The notes beneath the pieces were generated by a model. It saw only the letters and a program-made list of their open reading frames with translations. It had not been told where the DNA came from and ran no database searches. From Rhizobiales bacterium IMCC20636 (GTDB lineage Bacteria; Pseudomonadota; Alphaproteobacteria; Rhizobiales; GCA-2746425): a stretch of DNA of 64,000 nucleotides. This document shows, in pieces, positions 35,329 to 53,413 of this stretch (positions within the stretch are counted from its first letter, which is position 1; each line of letters begins with the position of its first letter). The DNA is taken from positions 1,767,001 through 1,831,000 of the forward strand of contig CP018226.1 in NCBI GenBank assembly GCA_016865015.1, given 5' to 3'. The position numbers and the translations under genes were made by a program.

Positions 35329-36231
35329 ATGCTGGAACTGAGAGAACTGCGGAACTTTGTGGTGGTCGCTGCCCGCCTGAACATCACAAATGCCGCACAG
35401 GAAGTGCACCTTAGCCAGCCGGCACTGTCACGGCAGATTCAGGCGCTGGAGCGCAAATTGGGTGTAGATCTGTTCCACCGCGTTGGAAAGCGACTGGTTC
35501 TCACGGCAGAAGGTTCTGATTTTGCCGAGCAAGCGAAAGAGCTTCTGGAACGTGCGTCGGATTTGACCTATCGGGCCTCAAATCAGGGCGATATGGGCGG
35601 CGGTACACTTCGCATCGGGGCTTCTCCTCAGACGACCGCCTGGCTGCTTTCTCCCGCAATGGCGCAGTTTCGAAGCCAAAACCCCGGCGTGAGATTTGTT
35701 GTCAACGAGGGCAATAATGACAAGCTCATTGAAATGGTTGAGCATGGTGCAGCCCATCTCGTGGTTGCCAATCTGGGTATCAACCATCTTGTTGCCGGAC
35801 AGCATCTATTTGATGCGCGATTGCTTGCTGTCCTGCCACCCGAGCACCATTTGCGGGACCGGGAGTCAATTACAATCGAGGATATTGCAGACACGCCATT
35901 GTTGATCATGCGTCGAGGGTTTTTGACTCGACACCTGTTCGAACAGGCAGCCCTTGCACACGGGGTCAGACCTGAAATCGTTTTGGAAAGTGACAGCACA
36001 CACACTTTGAGGGCGCTTGCCCATGACGGGCATGGTGTTGCGATTGTCTCGTCTTCGGCGCGAGATTTTTTCTTCGGTGAGAATGTTGTGCCTATACACT
36101 CCGGTCTGTGTCAAACCTCTGCTGATGTTTCCGCGCTTTGGAACCCGAAACGCTATCAACCCAAAAGCATGAGCGGTTTTGTGAACGTCCTCGCCGAAAT
36201 CTGCAAACAGGCAGCTAAGCCTTCCGTTTGA
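35329..36231 (+). CDS. LysR-family transcriptional regulator
   Basis: A 300-residue LysR-type regulator. The winged helix-turn-helix is at residues 1-60: LRELRNFVVVAARLNITNAA, then VHLSQPALSRQIQALERKLG and VDLFHRVGKRLVLT. The effector domain runs from about residue 90 to 295. It is divergent from pxpA with a 76-nt gap and convergent with tctA, which it overlaps by 17 nt. The repeated element in both promoter regions suggests that it controls pxpA, itself and tctCBA; the inducer is unknown, probably the transported acid. Confidence 0.93.
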   Translation: MLELRELRNFVVVAARLNITNAAQEVHLSQPALSRQIQALERKLGVDLFHRVGKRLVLTAEGSDFAEQAKELLERASDLTYRASNQGDMGGGTLRIGASPQTTAWLLSPAMAQFRSQNPGVRFVVNEGNNDKLIEMVEHGAAHLVVANLGINHLVAGQHLFDARLLAVLPPEHHLRDRESITIEDIADTPLLIMRRGFLTRHLFEQAALAHGVRPEIVLESDSTHTLRALAHDGHGVAIVSSSARDFFFGENVVPIHSGLCQTSADVSALWNPKRYQPKSMSGFVNVLAEICKQAAKPSV

Positions 36232-37693
36232 GAAAGAACATGACCGCGAAGACGGATGCTGCGAGAAACACCATTGCGATGGGATGTTGCAGAACATCCG
36301 AAACTGAATGGTTCGTCACGATCAGTGCCTGCCGCAGTGACAGTTCAAACAGAGGCCCAACCACAAATCCGATCAGAAATGTGATGACCGAGTAGCCATA
36401 GCGCTGCATTACAAACCCAACTCCGCCGAGTGACAGCATGGCCAGGACAGGGAAGATTGTGTCTCGCTGAAGGTATGTTCCCACGACACAAAACAGTATC
36501 ACGAAAGGAATGATCACCAGCAGTGGCAGGCGGGTTGCCTTGGCAAACAGGGTCAAACCGAGGCGTCCGACAATCAGCATCACGAGACTGGCGACGATCA
36601 TTGAAACATAGATGCCATAGATCAGGCGCGGATGTTGTTCGAACACCAAGGGGCCTGGCTGAACGCCGTGAAGCATGAATGCGGAGACCAGAATAGCGGC
36701 CGAGACGCTCCCTGGCAGGCCAATGGCAAACAGCGGGATCAGGCTGGCTGGCAGGACCGCATTGTCAGCAGCTTCCGTCGCAGCCACACCTTTCAGGTCA
36801 CCTTTGCCATAACAGTCACCCGGCTTGGCCATGCGCTTGTTGACTGCATAGGACAGAAATGCGCCGATGGTTGGGCCCAGGCCCGGTAAAATACCGGCAC
36901 CGATCCCAATTCCGGTGGCGCGCAAGGTAACTGGAATAACGCGAAATATGTCGGCCCGGCTCAAGTCTTTGTTGGTCTCGGTGGCAAAACGGGCAGCTGT
37001 GACACCGGATTTGCGTTCGGCAAACAAGGTTTGTGTTTGAACCAGCATTTCTGTGAAAGCCAGCATGCCAACTGTTGCGGCGATCAGGGGAATGCCATCA
37101 AACAGTTCGATCATTCCGAAAGTCATGCGCGGTGTCGCACTTTCAGGGTCCAGCCCGATGGTCGCGAGAAACAAGCCCAACACACCGGAAATGATACCGC
37201 GCGTCAGGGAGGACCCTGACAATGCGGCAATGAATGTCAGGGCAAAGATCATGACAGAAACCATTTCGACCGGTCCCATCTTCAGCGCAAAGCTTGCCAG
37301 GGGCGCTGCCAGAAGGATCAGCACGATTGTGGCAGAGAGATCACCAAACACGGATGCGTAGAGTGCGACCTTCAAAGCGCGGGTGGCTTCGCCTTTTTTT
37401 GCCAGAGGGTGGCCGTCGAATGTCGTGGCAGCCGAGCTTGGCTCACCGGGCGTATTTAGCAAGATTGCGCCAGTGGCACCGCCTGCCGCGCTTGCTTTTG
37501 TGACACCTACAAGAAAGGCAATCGCAGCAATGGGCGACATTGCGTAGGTGATTGGCACCGCGACCGACAATGCAGCTGGCCGGCTCAGACCAGGGAGAAC
37601 ACCAACGACATAGCCGAGAAAGATGCCACCAATGACTGCGATGATTGATGAAAGCTGGAGCGCATCAGCTGCACCCTGAAGGAAAGTTTCCAC
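36215..37693 (-). CDS. tctA: Tripartite tricarboxylate transporter, large membrane subunit TctA
   Basis: The 492-residue protein has 11-12 hydrophobic segments and the TctA hallmarks: FLGYVVGVLPGLSRPAALSV, ILLNTPGEPSSAATTFDGHP and GIGAGILPGLGPTIGAFLSY (a repeat of the first motif). It works with TctB in the membrane and the periplasmic TctC to import carboxylates using an ion gradient. The start codon is GTG, 3 nt after tctB. The last gene of tctCBA; its 3' end overlaps lysR by 17 nt. Confidence 0.95.
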   Translation of the reverse strand: METFLQGAADALQLSSIIAVIGGIFLGYVVGVLPGLSRPAALSVAVPITYAMSPIAAIAFLVGVTKASAAGGATGAILLNTPGEPSSAATTFDGHPLAKKGEATRALKVALYASVFGDLSATIVLILLAAPLASFALKMGPVEMVSVMIFALTFIAALSGSSLTRGIISGVLGLFLATIGLDPESATPRMTFGMIELFDGIPLIAATVGMLAFTEMLVQTQTLFAERKSGVTAARFATETNKDLSRADIFRVIPVTLRATGIGIGAGILPGLGPTIGAFLSYAVNKRMAKPGDCYGKGDLKGVAATEAADNAVLPASLIPLFAIGLPGSVSAAILVSAFMLHGVQPGPLVFEQHPRLIYGIYVSMIVASLVMLIVGRLGLTLFAKATRLPLLVIIPFVILFCVVGTYLQRDTIFPVLAMLSLGGVGFVMQRYGYSVITFLIGFVVGPLFELSLRQALIVTNHSVSDVLQHPIAMVFLAASVFAVMFFLKRKA

Positions 37694-37696
37694 AGT

Positions 37697-38155
37697 TCAG
37701 AGCCCTGCCCATTCTATAAAATACAGCAATAAGAAAGCTGCTCCGACCATCAGTGACAGATGCATGATGTTCCGCATCCCGACGGCCAGCGCAGTCAGGA
37801 AAATCAGAACCGTACCTCCGACCAACAGGCCAAATTGGTAAATTGTCCAGGCGCCGATGAGTGTGGCAGCGCACAGAAGGAATACGCCTGCCAGACCATT
37901 GCTGGCGGGTGCGGCCACCTGTTTGGATCCGGTGAGATTTACGAGCAGCCCGATGATTGCGAAACCGATGATGATGACGATGGTGGCAACGGGGACCATC
38001 CGTGGTGACAAGCCAAAATTGTCACTTTGCTGGGTGCCGGTGGGGATGATGATCGTCAGGCAGATCAGGCACAGGGAAAACACAATTGCAAATTCGCAAA
38101 TGGGCCTGAACTTTCGTCCAGGCCCGATTTGTTCTGGACCATTGCCAGTTTTCAT
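37697..38155 (-). CDS. tctB: Tripartite tricarboxylate transporter, small membrane subunit TctB
   Basis: A 152-residue protein with four hydrophobic segments, a basic N-terminal tail, and the typical PRMVPVATIVIIIGFAIIGL motif after the first segment. The sequence of this subunit is poorly conserved in general; the assignment rests on size, topology, that motif and the position between tctC and tctA. Its ATG follows the tctC stop with no gap. Confidence 0.9.
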   Translation of the reverse strand: MKTGNGPEQIGPGRKFRPICEFAIVFSLCLICLTIIIPTGTQQSDNFGLSPRMVPVATIVIIIGFAIIGLLVNLTGSKQVAAPASNGLAGVFLLCAATLIGAWTIYQFGLLVGGTVLIFLTALAVGMRNIMHLSLMVGAAFLLLYFIEWAGL

Positions 38156-39103
38156 TTATTTGAGCGCCGCTTCGAACTGAGCGCTTTGTGCGCGGATTTG
38201 CGCTTCAAATTCGTCACCGGTCAAAATGAAGCTACCCATATTCCTGCCAGCCAGTATTTCAAGGACAGTCTCAGACTCAGCGGCGGCCTTGAACGCATCC
38301 ACAAGGATGGTCTTGGTCTCATCGCTCAGTCCTGCTGGTGCAACATACACCACCATGTTGACGCTTGAAATGTCATAACCAAGACTTTCCAGTGTCGGTG
38401 CGCTTTCAAAGCCGGGGACAGGCTCTTTGCCGAGTCCGGCCATAACTGCCAGATCGCCTGCTTTTGCCTGAGCATAGTAAGTGCCCGAGCTATATGCGAA
38501 ATCCACATGTCCGCCAAGCGTTTGGGCAACGGCTTCGGCGCCACCTTTGGTCGGAACCGGTTTGATCGTGACGCCTTCCTGTTTTGCGATGGTCGCCATG
38601 ATAACGCGGTCAAGTGAGGTTGTTGATGCGTAGTTCAAGCCGTCAGGGGCTGCTTTTGCTGCCGCAACAATATCGGAGAAATCGTTCCAGCCCTTTGACG
38701 GCAGTGCGACAATTGCTTCCGGAAAGACTCCGAAAGCCCCGATATAGTCGAAGGAATCGATGTTATAGGCCCGATCACCTGTATGCGGATCAAACGAAAC
38801 CGTTGTCGTGATGGCTGCGGCGAGTTCATATCCGTCAGCTGGCTTGGCCAGCAGAGCGGTTAGTGCAAGTCCGCCACCGGCACCGGGTTGGTTGTCGACG
38901 ACGACCGATTGCCCAAGCGCTTTGGAAATGGCATCTGAAGCGGCTCGCGTAATTGTGTCGACGCCACCGCCAGGCCCGAAGCCAACTGTTATTCTGACGC
39001 TTCGTTCCGGAAACTCGGCAAACGCAGCGCTTGCAGTTAATACAACAGCGGCCCCTGCACAGAGGAACACACCAAATTTAGAAGAACTTTTGTAACTATC
39101 CAT
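38156..39103 (-). CDS. tctC: Tripartite tricarboxylate transporter solute receptor TctC
   Basis: A periplasmic binding protein of the Bug/TctC family. The 315-residue protein has a signal peptide with cleavage near SAAFA-EFP (residue 29). Family signatures are FPERSVRITVGFGPGGGVDT and the ligand-site loop VVVDNQPGAGGGLALTALLA, where Bug proteins hold a carboxylate through water and backbone contacts. SD AGGAAG precedes the ATG. It is the first gene of tctCBA, downstream of operator copy B. The ligand is unknown; dicarboxylates, cyclic amides and amino-acid derivatives are known for the family. Confidence 0.95.
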   Translation of the reverse strand: MDSYKSSSKFGVFLCAGAAVVLTASAAFAEFPERSVRITVGFGPGGGVDTITRAASDAISKALGQSVVVDNQPGAGGGLALTALLAKPADGYELAAAITTTVSFDPHTGDRAYNIDSFDYIGAFGVFPEAIVALPSKGWNDFSDIVAAAKAAPDGLNYASTTSLDRVIMATIAKQEGVTIKPVPTKGGAEAVAQTLGGHVDFAYSSGTYYAQAKAGDLAVMAGLGKEPVPGFESAPTLESLGYDISSVNMVVYVAPAGLSDETKTILVDAFKAAAESETVLEILAGRNMGSFILTGDEFEAQIRAQSAQFEAALK

Positions 39104-40504: not shown

Positions 40505-41214
40505 GTGGCGAAGATGCCGCCGGGAGCGGGAAAACACAAGCTGTGATGGTTCGCAACGCGACATTGAAACTGTGTGAAAATGCCAGATGGCCGGTTTGCT
40601 CGCCGGATGTGTGCATATGGCTGCCTGTTGCTCCACAGATATTTTGGTGCGCGAGACCAAAAGCTGACAAGCAGAATAAAACAGCGATCTGGATTCGTGC
40701 GGCACGCCAGTCCAGAACAGGCATATTCCAGCACTGCATTTTATACCTGCATCTGGCGGTCAAACCCCTTGTTACCAGTCGTTTCTAACAGGTTGCAGCT
40801 ATATTTAGACCTTGCTATTCGGTGGATTGGCCCGTATGGGTTGGCCAGATGGTCTTGGCGTAAAGCGGCAGAGGTTTGCTGCAGCATTCAATTTTCTCAA
40901 ATCGAATTGCCCGCAATGACTGTCCATTGAGCCTGCAAAGTTCAACTTCACCTTTTATGATTCTGAGTGTTGACCGATTTTGCGGCCTCTAAGTGTACTC
41001 GACTCTGCGCGCTATTCCTCTGACGTCAATTTTTGACATATTTGGATCACATCCGTTTGTGACTGATCTTCGTTTGTGACTGACAGTCATGATGGACAGA
41101 TTGCCGTTTTTAACACGACGTTCAAATTCTGAATGGAGTGACTGAAGCCATCCTTGTGGCTGTGTTTTCTAAAATGAATTGTGCCTTCCCGATGTCCCCG
41201 CTCCATACCCGAGC
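40505..41214. other. Long intergenic region with direct repeats
   Basis: About 700 bases without a gene I can support; frames at 40574-40930 and elsewhere read as random protein. Near its right end CGTTTGTGACTGA occurs twice (41054-41066 and 41071-41083) with a 17-nt period. The second copy runs into a TGACT-GAC-AGTCA dyad (41077-41089), and a TGACGTCA palindrome lies at 41021-41028. This looks like the control region of the following three-gene unit. Confidence 0.45.
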
Positions 41215-42468
41215 ATGGATCGTCATGGCGCGTTGATTTCCTGTCCTTTTGTCAGGAAGTCCCAGGAGCTTGAAAATATTTTGGACAAATACCTGCTTTT
41301 TACACCAGGCCCCGTCAATGTGGCCGAGACCTTGCGCCGCGCGATCTGCAAGGAAGATATCTGCCACCGAGAACCGGATTTCGATAAACTTCTTGCCAGT
41401 ATAGAGCAGAAAATCATCTCACTCTTCCAGGTCAGAAACCGCAATCGCTATCGCGCAGTTGTGATCACCGGGTCAGGTACGGCCGCCAATGAAGCGATCC
41501 TCTCATCTGTTGTCGGCAAAGGTGCAATACTGATCCTGTCAAACGGTGAATTTGGTGAGCGTTTGCACAAGACCTCCATCATTCACAACAGAAAAACCCA
41601 TCAGATCAAAATGCCATGGGGAACCGGTTTCAATCTGGCAAAGATCAAAACCTATCTGGCGACGCATAAAATTGATGTCGTGGCGATGGTTCATCATGAA
41701 ACCTGTTCGGGCATGCTCAATCCGCTGGTCGAGATAGGCGCGATGGTCAAGGCGTGTGGTGCAATCTTTGTTGTGGATGGCGTCAGTTCTGTGGGTGCCG
41801 ATATGGTGGATATGGAAAGGTGCAATATTGCATTTTGTTCCAGCTCCAGTTCAAAGGCACTCGGGTCTTATCCTGGTCTGTCCTTTGTCATCGGACGCAA
41901 AAAGCAATTCAAGAAGCTCAAGAAGCATGCCGCAAACACCACCTATCTGAACCTGGCGACATTTTACGACTTTCTGAAATCGCGCAATCAAACGCCCAAT
42001 ACGCCCGCTGTTCCGTTGTTTTTTGCGTTGGAAACGGCTCTCGTCAACATTTTGCAGGAGGGCGTGGGCAAACATGGTGCAGCCATTCAGGCACGGGCGG
42101 ATCTGTTGCGCCTTGGCATGCGCAAGCTCAATCTTGAATTTTTGATTGATGAGCGCAAGATGAGCTCGGTCCTGACCACTGTGTGCGTTCCGCTGTCCAT
42201 CACCGTCAAAGACATTCGTGATCGTCTGCGCGAAAAATCCATCATCATCTATGAGGGCAAGGGCTGCTTTGCCGGCAAGGTGTTTCAGGTTGGCAATATC
42301 GGAGAGCTGTCCGACTATGACATAGGATACTTTCTGGCGTCACTGAAGGACGTCCTGCTGACCTTGCGGGCAGAGGCCGCAATTCCAGTCGTTCTTCCCC
42401 TCAGGTCTGAGTCCGCACGGCTCCTGAATGTGCTGCCCAAAAGGCGTGTGCTGGCGAGGGTGGCATGA
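41215..42468 (+). CDS. PhnW-like class V aminotransferase (2-aminoethylphosphonate type)
   Basis: A PLP-dependent fold-I aminotransferase related to 2-aminoethylphosphonate-pyruvate aminotransferase. Visible blocks: KYLLFTPGPVNVAETLRRAI with DICHREPDF, the VVITGSGTAANEAILSSVV loop, the PLP-phosphate and ring contacts in IFVVDGVSSVGADM (Asp188), and the Schiff-base lysine Lys214 in SSSSKALGSYPGLSF. With the ATG at 41215 the protein has 417 residues; a TTG at 41281, behind AGGAG, would start only four residues before LLFTPGP and fits PhnW better, so the start is uncertain. The C-terminal 40 residues extend past the usual end. It overlaps the next gene by four bases. Confidence 0.8.
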   Translation: MDRHGALISCPFVRKSQELENILDKYLLFTPGPVNVAETLRRAICKEDICHREPDFDKLLASIEQKIISLFQVRNRNRYRAVVITGSGTAANEAILSSVVGKGAILILSNGEFGERLHKTSIIHNRKTHQIKMPWGTGFNLAKIKTYLATHKIDVVAMVHHETCSGMLNPLVEIGAMVKACGAIFVVDGVSSVGADMVDMERCNIAFCSSSSSKALGSYPGLSFVIGRKKQFKKLKKHAANTTYLNLATFYDFLKSRNQTPNTPAVPLFFALETALVNILQEGVGKHGAAIQARADLLRLGMRKLNLEFLIDERKMSSVLTTVCVPLSITVKDIRDRLREKSIIIYEGKGCFAGKVFQVGNIGELSDYDIGYFLASLKDVLLTLRAEAAIPVVLPLRSESARLLNVLPKRRVLARVA

Positions 42469-43235
42469 TGAATGGCAAGATGTCGCAGCTTTGGGATACC
42501 AAAACCAGAGATGATGAATGGTGGTCCTCATTTGTGACGGCACCATTGGCCCTGATCGCCAATTACGCCGTGGTGGACGTGCCCTGGATAACGCCCAACC
42601 GCATCACTGCAGCATCATTTCTGGTGGCGGTGCTGTCGATCTTCTGCATTCTGATCGGAGGCTACGGTAATTTTATCGCAGCTGCGATCCTGATCCATCT
42701 CAGCCACGTGCTCGACTGTATGGATGGGCAAATGGCGCGCTACCGGAAGGTATCGTCCCCGGTTGGCAGCTACTATGATCGCCTGACGGATCAGGTTCAG
42801 GTGACATTGTGGTTTGGCGCGATAGGGTATGCCGCCTATGCACAGACGCTCAGTGTCGTACCTGTCTTTCTTGCCCTGATTGGCATCGCGTTCTACGGAC
42901 TGCGCGGTTATGTCAAATACATTGCCATTCAAATCGAAACCGCACGCAATCCGGATTATCCGGCTGCGATGGCTGATCTGAACCATGTGAAACCCACAGC
43001 AGGTTTCGGCTTTGGCCTTCGCGCAAATCTATCGTGGTTCTTCAGGGAACAGCACAAGATTGTTTTTGCGGATGAGGGGGTTTTCATCTTCATACTGTCT
43101 GCAGCGCTTGTCCTGGACCAGATCACTGCGATGCTCTGGGTGTTTGCTGCCAGCCAACTTTTCTGGGGCATCTACTGGTCCGTGAAACAGGGGATGAACA
43201 TCAATGCAAACCGACAATTTCCGATTCAAAAATAA
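42465..43235 (+). CDS. CDP-alcohol phosphatidyltransferase family membrane enzyme
   Basis: A 256-residue membrane protein with about five hydrophobic segments. The full CDP-alcohol signature is present at residues 84-109: Asp84, Asp87, Gly88, Ala91, Arg92, Gly101, Asp105 and Asp109 (in LDCMDGQMARY and GSYYDRLTD). Such enzymes join a CMP-activated head group to an alcohol, or the reverse. Between a PhnW-like aminotransferase and a nucleotidyltransferase, the likely substrate is a CMP-activated aminoalkylphosphonate or related head group. The start is the first of two ATGs and overlaps the upstream stop (ATGA). Confidence 0.88.
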   Translation: MMNGKMSQLWDTKTRDDEWWSSFVTAPLALIANYAVVDVPWITPNRITAASFLVAVLSIFCILIGGYGNFIAAAILIHLSHVLDCMDGQMARYRKVSSPVGSYYDRLTDQVQVTLWFGAIGYAAYAQTLSVVPVFLALIGIAFYGLRGYVKYIAIQIETARNPDYPAAMADLNHVKPTAGFGFGLRANLSWFFREQHKIVFADEGVFIFILSAALVLDQITAMLWVFAASQLFWGIYWSVKQGMNINANRQFPIQK

Positions 43236-43273
43236 CGCGCCTGTGATGGCGACAAGACGGGATACATTCAACT

Positions 43274-44104
43274 ATGAGACATGAAAACAATCGCGCTCCA
43301 AAGGCTGTCATTCTGGCGGCTGGCATCGGATCCAGACTGCACCCACTGACAGATGATTGCCCCAAAAGTCTGCTGTCTGTCGGCGGGTCCGTTATTCTGG
43401 AAAGAATGATCCGGAATTGCCTCAGCTCCGGCATCTCCCAGTTCGTTCTGGTGCTGGGATATCGCGACGATCAAATCAGAGAATTCATCAACAAGACGTT
43501 TCGGGGAATCCGTATCAGCTATGTTTTCAATGACAAGTACCAAGACACCAATACCGGCTATTCGCTGATGTTGGCATCTTCGGCCATCGCAGGCTCGGAA
43601 TTTGTCAAATTCGATGCCGATGTGGTGTTCGACACCAAAATCCTGCGCCGTCTTCTGGATAGTGACATGCCAAACGTGCTGTGTATCGACCGCAATATCG
43701 CACTTGAAGACGAAGAGGTGAAGGTCATTGCCGACGATCAGATGCGTGTGCTCGAAGTTGGCAAGAAGGTCGACCCGAAGAAGGCCGTTGGTGAATCAAT
43801 CGGCATAGAAAAGATCAGTGCCGAGGCCGGATCCCTGCTGTTTGCGGAACTGGCGCAGATGATGAAAAATCCCTTGCTTCATCAAGAGTATTATGAGGCG
43901 GCTTACGCACAATTGGTGACCAAGGGAACTGTGTTTCACGCGCTTGATATTACGGGACTGGATTGGACCGAGATTGATACAGCCAAAGACTTTGCACTTG
44001 CAAACGACATGTTCCAATCCCCGATCAAAACCGTGTCACGCAGTCAGCAATCGGCGCTGGATGAAGCTGCAGCCAAGGTTGCCATGCCCGTTTTACCAAG
44101 TTAG
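43274..44104 (+). CDS. Sugar-phosphate/phosphonate-type nucleotidyltransferase (LicC/PntC-like)
   Basis: A 276-residue NTP transferase with a Rossmann-like domain. The nucleotide-binding motif AAGIGSRLHPLTDDCPKSLL has the conserved Gly, Arg21 and Lys31. The metal-binding aspartates are in FVKFDADVVFD and, near the C-terminus, LDWTEIDTAKD. The short size and absence of a left-handed beta-helix fit cytidylyltransferases such as LicC (phosphocholine) and PntC (2-aminoethylphosphonate). The neighbours favour a CMP-phosphonate product. 38 nt after the CDP-alcohol gene; same operon. Confidence 0.85.
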   Translation: MRHENNRAPKAVILAAGIGSRLHPLTDDCPKSLLSVGGSVILERMIRNCLSSGISQFVLVLGYRDDQIREFINKTFRGIRISYVFNDKYQDTNTGYSLMLASSAIAGSEFVKFDADVVFDTKILRRLLDSDMPNVLCIDRNIALEDEEVKVIADDQMRVLEVGKKVDPKKAVGESIGIEKISAEAGSLLFAELAQMMKNPLLHQEYYEAAYAQLVTKGTVFHALDITGLDWTEIDTAKDFALANDMFQSPIKTVSRSQQSALDEAAAKVAMPVLPS

Positions 44105-45655: not shown

Positions 45656-47707
45656 TTAGTTTTGTCTCGTCAGATCCGCCAGAGCTCTCATGGCGGCCTT
45701 GTTCCCGACACTGACCAGAGAGCGGAAAATTTTGATCGCGTCAGGCCGGCGCCCGAGTTTTTGATAGGCATATCCACGAATGATCATGAGGTCCTGGCGT
45801 TCGGGGGCGAAGCGCGCGCGCTGATCAAGAGCAATGATTGTTTCGTGGTATCGGCCGATTTTGAAGGCGCCAATTGCGCGGTCTGCCAAAATCGAGCTCT
45901 GCAATTCCTTTGCGCGTTCCGGAGACTGCGGTGCGGCCGTTGCCGCAGCTGCAGCCTTATCCGGCATCTCCAGTCTCAAATAAGCAAGGCTCTGACCATA
46001 AGCGGCTTCCCGCCGTGTTGCATCCGAGCCGCTATCGAGTGCGCGTTCAAATGCACTTACTGCTTCCATCGTCCGACCCAGTTCCATCAGGCACCAGCCG
46101 CGCGTCAATGCGTGTTCGGGAGACAGGTTGTTGGAGCTTTTTGTACTTTTACAGGAATTGTTCGGAGCAGATGAGCCGGCAGAGGACTGGGCAGGTACAG
46201 TCTTGGTCGTCCTTGGCTTGACGGGAGGATTGGTCGTCTGCGTATCGTTGTCTTGCCCAAGGGTGGCAATACGCTCCGACAGGTTCTTCCATCTGGCCTG
46301 AATCGTTGCCACTTCGCTGTTGTTCCCAAGTGCATTAAATGCAAGTGCGAGGCCATAAGCAGCGGGTTCATGTGCGGGATCCAACGACAGAGCGGTCCGA
46401 AACCATTCGACGGCTGTATCGTGTTGTCCCAAATAATGCGCATACCAACCGAACTGCTCGATCGCAATAACATTGCCTGCATCCAGAACAACTGGCGCCA
46501 TGCGCATCAAAACTTCAGATTTGATGGCTTTCGGTGGGTTGAGACCGAGAAGGTTGGTCACTGCTGCCAGATAGGCCTCGCCGGTTTTTTCATCGACATT
46601 GCGAAATTCATAAAGCAATTCCTCCGCCTCGGAAAAATTGCCGAGTTCGAGCTCAGAAAGGGCCAAGCCCTGAGCGGCCTCGGGAGACTTGACCTGGTCG
46701 AGAGCGTTGCGAAACCAGATGCGTGACTGCGTGTAAACAGCTCTTTCGTAATTGTACCAACCCAGGAGCATGGCGTCCGACGGCTCCTCTTTGCGAAGAG
46801 CTGTCGTTTTCAATTGGGTGAGATATTCGTCGGGCACAATGATTGATTTATCATTTGCAGCGCGTGATATGATTGACCGTGCAAGGTCGTCCCGAATGTC
46901 GTCGAATTCTCCCTGTCCGGTCCTGCTGCGGCGTTCCAGTTTCAGGAGCGTTTCCATCTGTGCAATATCGAGAAATGCTCCGGCTTTGATCGGGGTCGCT
47001 TTGCGTTCTGCAGGATCGTCGCAATTGCTCAGGATATAGACATAGGCCTCGGCTGCACGCTGCTGTCTTCCTGTCTCAGCAAATGCTTCGGCCAGACGCC
47101 ACATGACATCCACTTCGGCGCATGTCAGCAGTTGCGTGGCACGTGCCGAGATGTCGATGACCGCCTGAAACCGTCCATCTTCCGACGCCATGACGAGTTC
47201 TTGTCTGTCTTTGGCCAGCTTCAGGCTGTTTAGCAGTTCTGCAGGTGGGAGAAAGGCCGGGTCGCTTTCACGTATTCGATCGATCTCGCTGTCGACTTCC
47301 TCATGCAGACCTTCCGAATACAGCTTCCACAAATTCTCGATCCGGCGGTCACTTGACGTGGAATAATCGAGTGGGTCTTGCGGCGGCTCCCAATTGGGAT
47401 ACAGCGCCTTAAGCCGCGCAATTTCCTTGTTGAGACGCTCGATATCACCTTGCGCGGCAAAATAGCGCAGGGCGCTTTCGTCCACGTCTCGCCGGTCAGA
47501 AACGGCACCTACCTCATTGCGCGGCAGATTTGGTTTTCCCAGACCTGCTTCCGCTCTGACAAGAGGTTTGGTCTGAATTGGAACGAACGGCCTTACACCG
47601 GATTCTTCCTGTGCGAAGGCAGGTCCCATATAATCTTTGCCCCGCAAACCGGCATATCCGGCGGTCGCCAATGCGAAGACTGTTAAAGCCACATATGAGG
47701 TGCGCAT
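45656..47707 (-). CDS. Exported TPR-repeat protein of the cellulose locus
   Basis: A 683-residue protein with an N-terminal signal or anchor (YVALTVFALATAGYAGL) and many TPR-like repeats, clearest in residues 195-240, 310-380, 415-460 and 530-680 (for example AVEWFRTALSLDPAHEPAAY and AVSAFERALDSGSDATRREA). A Thr/Ser/Pro-rich linker occupies about residues 490-530. There is no C-terminal beta-barrel, unlike BcsC. It is divergent from bcsN across a 215-nt gap. A role as periplasmic scaffold of cellulose export (as proposed for TPR proteins such as BcsK in rhizobial-type loci) is plausible, but the name is not secure. Confidence 0.7.
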   Translation of the reverse strand: MRTSYVALTVFALATAGYAGLRGKDYMGPAFAQEESGVRPFVPIQTKPLVRAEAGLGKPNLPRNEVGAVSDRRDVDESALRYFAAQGDIERLNKEIARLKALYPNWEPPQDPLDYSTSSDRRIENLWKLYSEGLHEEVDSEIDRIRESDPAFLPPAELLNSLKLAKDRQELVMASEDGRFQAVIDISARATQLLTCAEVDVMWRLAEAFAETGRQQRAAEAYVYILSNCDDPAERKATPIKAGAFLDIAQMETLLKLERRSRTGQGEFDDIRDDLARSIISRAANDKSIIVPDEYLTQLKTTALRKEEPSDAMLLGWYNYERAVYTQSRIWFRNALDQVKSPEAAQGLALSELELGNFSEAEELLYEFRNVDEKTGEAYLAAVTNLLGLNPPKAIKSEVLMRMAPVVLDAGNVIAIEQFGWYAHYLGQHDTAVEWFRTALSLDPAHEPAAYGLALAFNALGNNSEVATIQARWKNLSERIATLGQDNDTQTTNPPVKPRTTKTVPAQSSAGSSAPNNSCKSTKSSNNLSPEHALTRGWCLMELGRTMEAVSAFERALDSGSDATRREAAYGQSLAYLRLEMPDKAAAAATAAPQSPERAKELQSSILADRAIGAFKIGRYHETIIALDQRARFAPERQDLMIIRGYAYQKLGRRPDAIKIFRSLVSVGNKAAMRALADLTRQN

Positions 47708-48936: not shown

Positions 48937-51120
48937 ATGCGTCTGTTCGTCATTTTCCTGATCTGGGTGATGTGTGCCACGGTGATGGTGTTTTTCATCT
49001 TTTTACCGATCGATGCGCGGACCCAGTTGGTCACCACGTTTATCGTGTTGCTGGGTGTTATCGTATTGAAGTATTTTCAGCCCAAGGGTTCGATGCGAAT
49101 GGTACTTCTGGCGCTCGGCACATCAATCGTGCTGCGCTACGTCTACTGGCGCACAACCAGCACGTTACCTCCCGTCAATCAGCCAATGAACTTTGTGCCT
49201 GGCCTTTTGCTCTATCTGGCGGAGATGTTCAGCGTCTGTATGCTGTTTCTCAGCCTGTTTGTCGTCTCTCGTCCTTTGGCACCCAGGCCACCAAGCCCGG
49301 GCCTTGATGAACAAACACTCCCGACGGTCGATATCTTCATTCCGACATATAACGAGGATGCCATGCTGCTCGCGCACACCATTGCGGCAGCATGCAATAT
49401 TGACTACCCGGAAGAGAAATTTACGGTCTGGCTGCTTGACGACGGGGGGACGGAACAGAAGCGCGGATCCATGAATTTGCTGGAAGCAAAAACGGCAGAG
49501 AAGCGTTATGCTGAGTTGCAACTTCTGTGTCAGCAACTTGGGATAAAGTATTTAGCGCGTGAGAAGAACGAGCATGCCAAAGCGGGAAATCTGAACAACG
49601 GGCTGGCGCACTCTACAGGCGAACTCGTGGCTGTGTTCGACGCGGATCACGCTCCGGCGCGTGACTTTCTGAAGGAAACAGTCGGTCATTTTTCCACAGA
49701 TCCCCGTCTGTTTCTTGTCCAGACGCCACACTTCTTCATCAATCCCGATCCGATTGAGCGCAACCTGAAGACATTTCAGCATATGCCCAGCGAAAACGAA
49801 ATGTTCTACGGGATCATTCAACGCGGCCTGGATAAATGGAATGCTGCGTTTTTCTGCGGATCAGCGGCTTTGTTGCGTCGGGAGGCGCTGACGGAATCAG
49901 AGGGGTTCAGCGGCTTGTCGATTACGGAGGACTGCGAGACTGCGCTGGAATTGCACTCGCGTGGGTGGAACAGCATTTACATCGACACTCCACTCATTGC
50001 AGGTCTGCAACCTGAAACCTTTGCCAGTTTTATCGGTCAGCGCAGCCGTTGGGCGCAGGGCATGATGCAGATCATGAGGTTTCAGTTTCCACTCTTCAAG
50101 CGCGGGTTAAGCTTCGCTCAACGACTTTGCTATCTGTCGTCGACCATGTTCTGGCTGTTTCCATTTCCGCGCTTCATCTTTCTGCTCTCACCACTGCTCT
50201 ATCTGTTTTTTGACCTGCAGATTTTCACAGCGTCTGGTGGGGAATTCATGGCTTACACGGTGTCCTACATGGTCGCCAACTTGCTGATTCAGAACTCTCT
50301 TTATGGTTCGTTCCGATGGCCCTGGATTTCGGAGCTCTATGAGTATGTGCAGTCGATCCATCTATTGCCGGCGGTGGTTTCAGTTGCGGTTAACCCAACC
50401 AAGCCGACATTCAAGGTAACGGCGAAGGACGAGTCAGTCTCTCAGAACCGGCTTTCGGAAATCAGCCGCCCGTTCTTTGTTATTTTCTTTGTTCTCCTCA
50501 TCGCCTTCGGCGTCACCATCTATCGACTGTATACAGAGCCTTTCAAAGTCGACATTACTCTGGTCGTTGGAGGTTGGAACCTGCTCAATCTGTTACTGGC
50601 GGGCTGCGCGCTTGGCGTGGTGTCCGAACGAAGGGAGCGGCAAACGTCAAGACGTGTGAAGGTAAAGCGTCGTGCTGAAGTCGAAGTTGACGGACGATGG
50701 TATCCGGCGATGATCCGTGATGTGTCACTGCGTGACTCCGGAATACAGATTTTTACGAAGGACACTGCAAAGTTTCCGTTGGGAGCGCATGCGAATTTGC
50801 GCTTCGAGGCGCATGGTCGGGCCGGGAAGGGAGAGCTTCCCATAGAGATCACCAGATCAAGGGCCGATGGCGAAATTCTTGATGTCGGGTGCCGATTCAT
50901 GCCCGAGGATGCCGGGCATCACGGTCTTGTGGCCGATTTGATTTTTGCAAATTCAGATCAGTGGAAATTGTTTCAGAATTCGCGCCGCCATAATCCCGGC
51001 GTCTTGCGCGGCACTTTGTGGTTCATCAGGCTTTCGCTGATTCAGACCGTCCGTGGCCTCCAGTATCTGCTTTTTCACAGGCAATCTGCCCAGGATTCCA
51101 AAACAAGTCGGGATGGGTAA
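48937..51120 (+). CDS. bcsA: Cellulose synthase catalytic subunit BcsA
   Basis: BcsA polymerises UDP-glucose into cellulose and threads the chain through the inner membrane. The 727-residue protein has eight or so membrane segments and every catalytic motif of the GT2 family: IPTYNED, LLDDGG (168-170), FDADHAP (235-237), SITEDCE (330-332) and QRSRWAQG (368-372). The C-terminal PilZ domain begins near residue 565 with RQTSRR; its second motif, DVSLRDSG, has two more residues than the usual DxSxxG. It overlaps or abuts bcsB. Confidence 0.97.
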   Translation: MRLFVIFLIWVMCATVMVFFIFLPIDARTQLVTTFIVLLGVIVLKYFQPKGSMRMVLLALGTSIVLRYVYWRTTSTLPPVNQPMNFVPGLLLYLAEMFSVCMLFLSLFVVSRPLAPRPPSPGLDEQTLPTVDIFIPTYNEDAMLLAHTIAAACNIDYPEEKFTVWLLDDGGTEQKRGSMNLLEAKTAEKRYAELQLLCQQLGIKYLAREKNEHAKAGNLNNGLAHSTGELVAVFDADHAPARDFLKETVGHFSTDPRLFLVQTPHFFINPDPIERNLKTFQHMPSENEMFYGIIQRGLDKWNAAFFCGSAALLRREALTESEGFSGLSITEDCETALELHSRGWNSIYIDTPLIAGLQPETFASFIGQRSRWAQGMMQIMRFQFPLFKRGLSFAQRLCYLSSTMFWLFPFPRFIFLLSPLLYLFFDLQIFTASGGEFMAYTVSYMVANLLIQNSLYGSFRWPWISELYEYVQSIHLLPAVVSVAVNPTKPTFKVTAKDESVSQNRLSEISRPFFVIFFVLLIAFGVTIYRLYTEPFKVDITLVVGGWNLLNLLLAGCALGVVSERRERQTSRRVKVKRRAEVEVDGRWYPAMIRDVSLRDSGIQIFTKDTAKFPLGAHANLRFEAHGRAGKGELPIEITRSRADGEILDVGCRFMPEDAGHHGLVADLIFANSDQWKLFQNSRRHNPGVLRGTLWFIRLSLIQTVRGLQYLLFHRQSAQDSKTSRDG

Positions 51121-51124
51121 GCTG

Positions 51125-53413
51125 ATGAGAACCCTTTTGACTGTCGTCTGGCTGGTATTTTCATGTTCAGTGGTTGTGGCTCAGACCCCGACATTCGATA
51201 TGGCGCCGGAGCGTAAGGAGCTAACGCCAGATCCTTCAAGAATACCTGAAGCGAGTGGAGAATTCGTCGAAACAGACGAGGTCGATGAAGCTGAGGCCCA
51301 ACCGGTTCCCATACGTTATCTCATGGAGGAGCCAACACTCAGACTTCAGGGAGAAACTGCAGTCCGCGAATGGTCAATCGGTTTGACACCGGCACAAGCA
51401 GCATCTCCGGCTGAATTTGTATTCACCTATTCCAATTCAATCGTAGTGGCTCCTGAATCCTCGCTGCTGACTGTCGAGATCAATGGCACAACATTGTTGG
51501 AGGAATCGCCACGTGGGGCCGAACGTGAGCAACGCCGAGTGGTGAAAGTCCCTTCCGGCACGCTGGTGTCTGGCGGCAATAGGGTACGCATCGAAGCGCG
51601 GCAAACGCATCGCACGGATTGCACGATCAACTCAACATTCGAGCTGTGGACCGATGTGTCTGCGGAAGACACGTATCTGTCCTTTTCAGCACAGAGTGCG
51701 AACCGGATGACAAGCCTCAGGGATATCGTGGCGGTTGGGACTGACACGACCGGTTTGACAAGATTCCATATGATCATGCCGTCGATGGGATCCGCGGAGA
51801 TGGCTGATATCGCACTGCGGCTTTCCCAGAAACTGGCCATTGCCAGTGGCAGCGAAAGCCCATTCTTTTCGTTCGGCACGACACTTCCCGAAGCCGTGGG
51901 GCCGGGTGAAATGATTGTCGCAGTCGGTTTCACAGAAGATATCTCCCGGATTTTGCCGGGGCGAGTTGGATCAAGTGATCCTAACCAGGCCAGATTTCTG
52001 ACAATTCCCGGAGACATTGAGGCCCAGGCTCTGGTTCTGTCAGCGCCTGATCTGCGCTCGCTGAAGTTAATTCTCGATGATATGAATGTGCAAGGTCTGG
52101 TTCGGCAGGATGAAGTGCCTTTTGTTGCTCCGTCAGGGTCGACCCGTTTCAGTTTCGCCGACCTTGGGGTAACTGCATCACAATTTTTTGGCCGTCGGTT
52201 CGTAACGAGCGTGAAGCTCGGTATGCCTGCGGATTTCTATGCCAGCAATTATGGTGTGGCGCGTATTCTTCTGGATGCTGCGTATTCGAGTGATGTGCTG
52301 CCTGGTGGCAGCTTCAATGTGATCGTCAACGGAGAACTGGGAACGACAGTGCCGATCACGACTGCTGGTGGCGCTGTCTTGCAGAAATATCCCATTCGAA
52401 TTCCTATGCGTCACTTGACACCCGGTATCAACATCATTGGCTTTGAGGCCATTCTTCCAACGCAAGTTGACAATTCCTGTATCCCTGGTGCGGACGTAAC
52501 CGATACACCGCGTTTCGCATTGTTTGGGACATCAGAACTTATCATTCCGAATTTCGCGCATGCAGAACGCGCGCCGGATCTGGCTGCCTGGTCCGCATTT
52601 GCAAGTCCCCTGGACGCGTCCGGATCCAGGCTCGACCTCTCGCTGGCACGCTATGATGAATTGACACTGTCCGCAGCCGCAACCGTAATGGCAAAACTGG
52701 CACGTTCCGCCGGCGCAGTAATCGACTTTCAACTGGTCGCCCCGGAGGTTCGTGCCCAGGCTGATAACGTCATCTTCATCGGCGTTGCTGATCGTTTGCC
52801 CGCTGAGTTGCTGGACGGGGTTGTCCTGACTGCCGTTGGAGACAGTGCAGACGACATAGAGCAGTTGGATAACGAAAATCTTGAACTTTGGAATAACCGG
52901 ATCACCCAACCCCGGTTGCTTTCCTGGTTCAGCAATGTTGGCGCTTGGTTCAAGGAGAACTTTGATCTGGACGCTTCTATTGCTTTTGTCTGGTCCGATG
53001 GTGATAGTCTCTACAATCTACCTTCGACCATCGACACTTTCTTTTATCAAACCGTTGATGCGGAAACCGGTGCAATTCGGACCATCGTGAGCGCAGCCAG
53101 CGACGTTCAACTGGTCAATGGTGCCGAGGCTTTTGCACGACAGACCAATTGGTCCCAGATACGGGGTGTCGTCAGCTATCATGACATTTTGACAGATGAG
53201 GTTGTTTCCATCGAGCCGTCATCTGCTCAGTTCCTGTCTGTCCGACCCCTGACGTTTACCAATCTGCGTCTTGTGTTGACGAACTGGTTAGCCAGTCACT
53301 TCATTCTTTATTCTCTGCTGCTACTCCTGTCAGCTGTTGCTGCAGGGTTTGCGACCAACAAGCTGTTGGGCGTGCTGGGCCGAGGTCATGAGAAACATGA
53401 GGAACATGAGTAA
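51125..53413 (+). CDS. bcsB: Cellulose synthase periplasmic regulatory subunit BcsB
   Basis: BcsB is the periplasmic partner of BcsA, anchored by one C-terminal helix. With the ATG at 51125 the protein has 762 residues and a signal peptide ending near VVVAQ (residue 20). An ATG at 51113, inside bcsA, is an alternative. Family segments are LRLQGETAVREWSIGLTPAQ, the VNGELGTTVPI carbohydrate-binding strand and YPIRIPMRHLTPGINIIGFE. The C-terminal anchor is FILYSLLLLLSAVAAGF, followed by a His/Glu tail (GHEKHEEHE). Confidence 0.93.
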   Translation: MRTLLTVVWLVFSCSVVVAQTPTFDMAPERKELTPDPSRIPEASGEFVETDEVDEAEAQPVPIRYLMEEPTLRLQGETAVREWSIGLTPAQAASPAEFVFTYSNSIVVAPESSLLTVEINGTTLLEESPRGAEREQRRVVKVPSGTLVSGGNRVRIEARQTHRTDCTINSTFELWTDVSAEDTYLSFSAQSANRMTSLRDIVAVGTDTTGLTRFHMIMPSMGSAEMADIALRLSQKLAIASGSESPFFSFGTTLPEAVGPGEMIVAVGFTEDISRILPGRVGSSDPNQARFLTIPGDIEAQALVLSAPDLRSLKLILDDMNVQGLVRQDEVPFVAPSGSTRFSFADLGVTASQFFGRRFVTSVKLGMPADFYASNYGVARILLDAAYSSDVLPGGSFNVIVNGELGTTVPITTAGGAVLQKYPIRIPMRHLTPGINIIGFEAILPTQVDNSCIPGADVTDTPRFALFGTSELIIPNFAHAERAPDLAAWSAFASPLDASGSRLDLSLARYDELTLSAAATVMAKLARSAGAVIDFQLVAPEVRAQADNVIFIGVADRLPAELLDGVVLTAVGDSADDIEQLDNENLELWNNRITQPRLLSWFSNVGAWFKENFDLDASIAFVWSDGDSLYNLPSTIDTFFYQTVDAETGAIRTIVSAASDVQLVNGAEAFARQTNWSQIRGVVSYHDILTDEVVSIEPSSAQFLSVRPLTFTNLRLVLTNWLASHFILYSLLLLLSAVAAGFATNKLLGVLGRGHEKHEEHE

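Follow-up and report, generated by a model that had tools for sequence, protein, structure and literature searches.

A conserved three-gene cassette with a structured leader RNA and a predicted role in head-group transfer

Distant marine bacteria share a compact cassette of three genes, and in one branch it is preceded by a structured leader RNA. It was found in a 64-kb stretch (64,000 nucleotides, hereafter the window) of the complete genome of Rhizobiales bacterium IMCC20636. The genes encode an aminotransferase (AT), a CDP-alcohol phosphotransferase (CDP-OH), and a nucleotidyltransferase (NT). Taken together, the evidence favors a self-contained, horizontally moving head-group operon, in which a CDP-activated amino head group is made and passed to an alcohol acceptor. 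A literature search found neither the three-gene cassette nor the leader RNA; a report elsewhere remains possible.

Gene content of the cassette

The three genes lie in tandem on the + strand. AT (41281-42468) is PhnW-like and matches Pfam Aminotran_5; its best NCBIfam model is TIGR03301 (PhnW-AepZ), at 283 bits, which is below the cut-off of 360.8. CDP-OH (42465-43235) matches Pfam PF01066 (CDP-OH_P_transf) and has its catalytic motif at 42714-42791. NT (43274-44104) is LicC/PntC-like and is a predicted cytidylyltransferase on the basis of its motif, profile matches, and fold. The initial annotation had given the genes these same family names, and all three are upheld. It had also described the genes as overlapping or abutting; AT and CDP-OH overlap by 4 nt, and the NT gene begins after a gap of 38 nt.

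The start of AT has to be moved. The initial annotation began the gene at an in-frame ATG at 41215, but this codon falls inside the conserved leader RNA and the orthologues begin at a later site, so TTG at 41281, which fits the orthologue N-termini, is the likelier start. A Shine-Dalgarno sequence (AGGAG, 41264-41268, + strand) is found directly 3' of the last leader hairpin, and a GGAG-like box is conserved at this place in the leader alignment.

The protein sequences retain the catalytic features of their families. In AT the PLP lysine K192 (41854-41856) and D166 are invariant in the orthologue alignment, and the fold matches PhnW and AGT with a Z of about 41, identifying the protein as a class V PLP aminotransferase. 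The CDP-OH motif, D84xxD87G88xxA91R92(x8)G101xxxD105xxxD109, is complete as first annotated, and those positions are invariant in 32 aligned orthologues. By profile matching, the nearest solved relatives of CDP-OH are AF2299, cholinephosphotransferase 1, and IPCT-DIPPS. NT has a GxGSR...PK motif, in which G17, G19, S20, R21, P30, and K31 show little or no variation across 31 orthologues.

The best solved relatives of NT are LicC and PntC, both of which score above the inositol enzymes. By sequence LicC slightly outscores PntC; for the predicted model (mean pLDDT 88.9), the structural match to PntC 6pd2 (Z 31.1) is better than that to LicC (Z 28.1). Asp114 of NT, invariant in the 31 orthologues, occupies the position of Glu104 in Tde-PntC, and LicC likewise has Asp there (D105). 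Glu104 of Tde-PntC contacts the amine of 2-aminoethylphosphonate (AEP), and another PntC has been noted as close to LicC (PMC6697681). Asp114 leans weakly away from AEP as the substrate, and one residue does not settle specificity.

Several other genes surround the cassette in the window. Downstream are a gene for a large repeat protein, encoded on the opposite strand (45656-47707), and, about 4.8 kb from the cassette, BcsA-like cellulose synthase and BcsB-like genes (48937-53413). A tripartite tricarboxylate transporter-like set is found at 36215-39103, beside a LamB/YcsF-type gene and a LysR-type regulator.

Distribution of the cassette

The three genes are conserved as a unit. When 84,980 species genomes were scanned with the AT alignment, 107 relatives were obtained, and 80 loci from this set were retained. 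In 68 of these 80 loci, tblastn found CDP-OH and NT both downstream of AT, in the same order and within 5 kb, indicating that the gene set is more than a chance arrangement. NT was present in 71 of the 80, and several of the exceptions end at a contig edge. The 4-nt overlap between AT and CDP-OH is found in most cassette loci. The hosts are mostly marine Rhodobacterales, followed by other alphaproteobacteria and by gammaproteobacteria (Shewanella benthica, Aliivibrio, SAR92, and Thioglobus), and further loci occur in metagenome-assembled genomes labelled Chlamydiae, Nitrospinaceae (Nitrospinota), SAR324, and others.

The composition of the cassette varies in some lineages. In loci of the L111, L114, and L118 types, CDP-OH has been exchanged for a different enzyme of its superfamily and AT and NT are retained, suggesting that AT and NT form the head-group core. 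L140 and L147 have one additional CDP-OH superfamily gene. An ATP-grasp-like protein is encoded between a different CDP-OH gene and NT in L114 (6097-7368, with a PF02786 match) and L130 (6866-8173). Three loci have an extra gene inside the operon (L128, 10965-11525; L129, 3331-3891; L132, 11027-11587). Its 186-aa product has no Pfam match and begins with a P-loop-like sequence, GPLAVGKMTVG; judged by this sequence, it could be a candidate head-group kinase. In L107 (8977-11652) AT lacks its partners and is beside a gene that resembles the glutamine synthetase family in sequence, a neighbor that might hint at the amine involved.

Origin and loss in the Rhizobiales

The cassette is rare in the order to which the window belongs. 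A close NT relative is present in only a few of 397 sampled same-order genomes, and four genomes besides that of the window have all three cassette genes. Other NT homologues in the order, at about 30% identity and in other gene contexts, were set aside as a different branch. In the tree, AT of the window falls within the roseobacter group (support 99/85 and 100/99); it is 78% identical to the Roseovarius protein versus 61-69% to same-order relatives. This placement and identity fit horizontal transfer, and the donor was probably roseobacter-like. Carriage of the cassette by phage was considered and rejected, as there was a match on one viral contig only, to a protein of 26% identity.

Within the genus the unit is in the process of being lost. 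One species has an NT of 80% identity and only a C-terminal remnant of CDP-OH, another has an NT remnant only, and two have no match at all. The first two states are those of the same locus in sister species (L038, 8764-9708; L039, 8813-9064). The transporter flank of the window is also conserved in L038 and L039.

The leader RNA

A structured leader RNA lies upstream of AT (41141-41280, + strand) and ends at the Shine-Dalgarno sequence. Its core (41174-41269) was defined by covariation in an alignment of 31 leaders of about 140 nt, 30 from other loci and one from the window. The core consists of a helix P1 (about 41181-41185 paired with 41227-41231), which encloses P2 (41191-41224), and a hairpin P3 (41235-41261), which adjoins the Shine-Dalgarno sequence. 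Upstream of the core, the minimum-energy fold contains a hairpin P0 (GCCAUC..GUGGCU, 41146-41161), and equivalent hairpins are found in nearly all of the 31 single-sequence folds. The leader of the window is more stable than its shuffles in minimum-energy folding, with a z-score of -3.66.

The alignment supports the structure. Changes on both sides are seen in 16 of 26 leader pairs, and 92% of the cells pair. The covariation score is 0.469, compared with at most 0.171 for a slid control that keeps the relatedness of the sequences; none of 500 shuffles reaches the score, a count that is not a probability because the leaders are related. A model made from 27 loci, with the window withheld, recovers the leader of the window at 43.9 bits (E 1.7e-11) and has no other significant match in the 64-kb window. 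It also finds the held-out leaders of L103, L075, L073, and L101, while L110 gives a marginal match of 21 bits at the right place.

In the genomes searched, the leader is associated with the cassette and with no other gene context. Exactly one strong match, located at the cassette, was obtained in 17 of the 22 genomes searched, and every strong match found is upstream of a cassette. Other contexts were sought in 149 further genomes of the family, where the matches besides the known one were at most 26 bits. Eight weak matches are attributed to chance because their loci hold no cassette gene. The leader is found in the roseobacter-type branch and in the window, and it was not found in the gammaproteobacterial cassettes. 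Rfam 15 contains no match to it, at thresholds of E 1 for the window and E 5 for L086. A conserved, covarying structure thus stands upstream of a single type of gene, and the leader is a candidate cis-regulatory, riboswitch-like RNA.

The position of the leader suggests how it acts. Because its 3' end lies at the ribosome-binding site, control of expression is probably translational. A coding attenuator was rejected: the ATG frames in the leader differ, reading MAR-stop in the window and MGAATS-stop in L069, and this difference in length makes a conserved leader peptide unlikely. Upstream of the leader, at 41060-41105 in the window, is an imperfect direct repeat, CGTTTGTGACTGA, possibly a promoter-proximal site for a regulator.

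The phosphonate question

The head group is very probably not a phosphonate made de novo. The initial annotation had noted that PEP mutase and phosphonopyruvate decarboxylase (Ppd) were missing from the neighborhood of the cassette, and the same is true of the whole single-contig genome. Statements of presence and absence for genomes rest on family searches, and neither pepM nor ppd was found above its cut-off. For PEP mutase the best match scores 107.9 bits (cut-off 319.55), and for Ppd the best match scores 34 bits (cut-off 312.5). The motif of PEP mutase is EDKxxxxxNS (PMC6697681). In its place the nearest PEP-mutase-like protein has EDQVSPKRCGH, and this protein was rejected as a mutase, as was the other family member of the genome, a weaker match in a 432-aa frame.

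Phosphonate genes are not associated with the cassette in other genomes either. PEP mutase was not found above the cut-off in any of five genomes of the same genus or order that have cassette genes, two of which are only 61-71% complete. Among 40 other cassette genomes it is above the cut-off in one (HTCC2083), and two more have intermediate scores. The PEP mutase motif was not found in the neighborhoods of the 80 cassette loci. The C-P lyase protein PhnJ is absent from the genome of the window, and only 10 of 29 cassette genomes have it, so there is no general tie of the cassette to phosphonate use. De novo phosphonate synthesis was therefore rejected: the complete genome lacks both PEP mutase and Ppd, and cassette genomes as a set show no association with it. 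Two same-order genomes have a distant NT homologue, of the branch set aside above, whose neighbor is a PEP mutase gene carrying the EDKxxxxxNS motif (L049, 9568-12574; L052, 6929-9988), and these loci are likely to be true phosphonate clusters.

The active site of AT differs from those of AEP transaminases. In a profile alignment, AT has Gln336 (42286-42288) where the solved AEP transaminases have the Arg of FRI(G/A)NIG; these are PhnW of Salmonella (1m32), PhnW of Vibrio vulnificus (9kk8), and the AEPT of Treponema denticola (6pd1). Gln is found at this position in all 79 cassette loci with a readable motif. In addition, the cassette family has Pro-Asn where the solved AEP transaminases carry the Arg of RFT. 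In this aminotransferase family the FRIxNIG-type Arg is regarded as the contact for the amino donor's carboxylate. AT is without this residue, so its substrate pair is probably unusual.

Salvage of AEP from seawater would make PEP mutase unnecessary. NT would then activate AEP as PntC does, the product would be transferred to lipid or glycan, and AT would interconvert AEP and phosphonoacetaldehyde. The best sequence match of AT is the solved PntC-AEPT fusion 6pd1, whose two halves are close relatives of AT and NT. Together with PntC as the best structural match of NT, this leaves an AEP-type substrate conceivable. However, the two Arg of AEP transaminases are missing from AT, PhnJ has the limited distribution given above, and a conserved AT would be hard to explain if AEP were simply salvaged. 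Salvage is thus an unlikely source of the head group.

The aminophosphonate head group proposed in the initial annotation is therefore not borne out. PEP mutase and Ppd are missing, both Arg residues are absent from AT, and NT has an Asp of the LicC type in place of Glu104 of Tde-PntC. That annotation had also allowed that the head group might not be a phosphonate at all, and this is the option favored by the evidence. Its general logic, in which a small head group is activated by a nucleotidyltransferase and then transferred by the CDP-alcohol enzyme, is supported, and the fold of NT matches PntC best. As a whole the earlier interpretation stands in part; it had overlooked the leader RNA and how widely the unit is conserved.

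Proposed function

The preferred reading is an operon that makes, activates, and transfers an amino head group. AT would make or interconvert the amine of a small head-group precursor. From its fold and motif, NT is expected to react the phospho-head group with CTP and so produce a CDP- or CMP-activated form. CDP-OH would then pass the activated head group to an acceptor in a Kennedy-style reaction, as its complete motif and its likeness to cholinephosphotransferase suggest. The leader RNA at the start of the mRNA would provide translational control, perhaps with the product or a precursor as its ligand. As for the head group itself, a phosphate ester is most likely, rather than a phosphonate synthesized by the cell, and the acceptor, which is assumed, is most likely a membrane lipid. 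A kinase able to make the phosphate ester is absent from the operon of the window, and this counts against the reading. A further, more tentative proposal is that the leader belongs to a new class of riboswitch, specific to this operon, that senses an intermediate or end product of an amino phospholipid pathway not yet described, and that the operon, with its AT lacking the carboxylate-binding Arg, makes a new head group in marine bacteria.

The cassette could instead make a soluble phosphodiester solute similar to di-myo-inositol phosphate, with NT forming a CDP-compound and CDP-OH joining it to a soluble alcohol phosphate. NT and CDP-OH both match inositol-phosphate cytidylyltransferase/DIPP synthase (NF041135; 4mnd), and many of the hosts are marine. 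This use of the genes is nevertheless improbable, since LicC and PntC outscore the inositol enzymes, an aminotransferase has no role in the di-myo-inositol-phosphate pathway, and the unit contains no phosphatase gene. It is still less probable that the PLP enzyme has another class V activity, such as that of a lyase, and that the unit decorates a glycan: the carboxylate-type Arg is lost in every member and a cellulose synthase-like cluster lies downstream in the window, but the PLP lysine and the fold are kept, and no link to the cellulose genes is seen because the flanks vary between related loci.

Comparison with known systems

The proposed head-group operon resembles several known systems and differs from each. 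The Pnt clusters, including PntC-AEPT of Treponema denticola, likewise combine a cytidylyltransferase of the PntC/LicC fold with a PhnW-like aminotransferase and use activation by CTP (PMC6697681). The cassette lacks PEP mutase and Ppd, consists of separate genes, and has a CDP-OH enzyme and a leader RNA; its AT has Gln instead of Arg, and its NT has Asp at the Glu104 position. NT shares with LicC of the Lic phosphocholine pathway the fold, the GxGSR...PK motif, and an Asp pair (D114/D116, corresponding to D105/D107 of LicC). In contrast to that pathway, the cassette has an aminotransferase and CDP-OH, and it lacks genes for choline uptake and a choline kinase.

In the Kennedy pathway, with its CTP:phosphoethanolamine/phosphocholine cytidylyltransferase, a CDP-activated amino alcohol is likewise transferred to an alcohol by a CDP-OH phosphotransferase (CPT/EPT), and the corresponding steps of the cassette are predicted ones. 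The cassette has a predicted cytidylyltransferase of a different family and an aminotransferase in the operon, and most of the operons have no kinase. The di-myo-inositol-phosphate pathway (IPCT-DIPPS) also pairs an NTP transferase with a CDP-OH enzyme, but the similarity is lower than that to LicC/PntC, and the pathway is without an aminotransferase. The leader RNA can be compared with the SAM/SAH riboswitch upstream of metK in Rhodobacterales (PMC2864571), which is also compact, structured, and near the start codon. The two differ in sequence, structure, and associated gene.

Conclusions

Annotation of proteins as PhnW- or PntC-like does not imply that phosphonates are involved. A compact operon is common to distant marine bacteria and is accompanied by an RNA in one branch, and its head group may be one that has not been described. 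If the leader RNA binds a ligand, it would report the product of the pathway.
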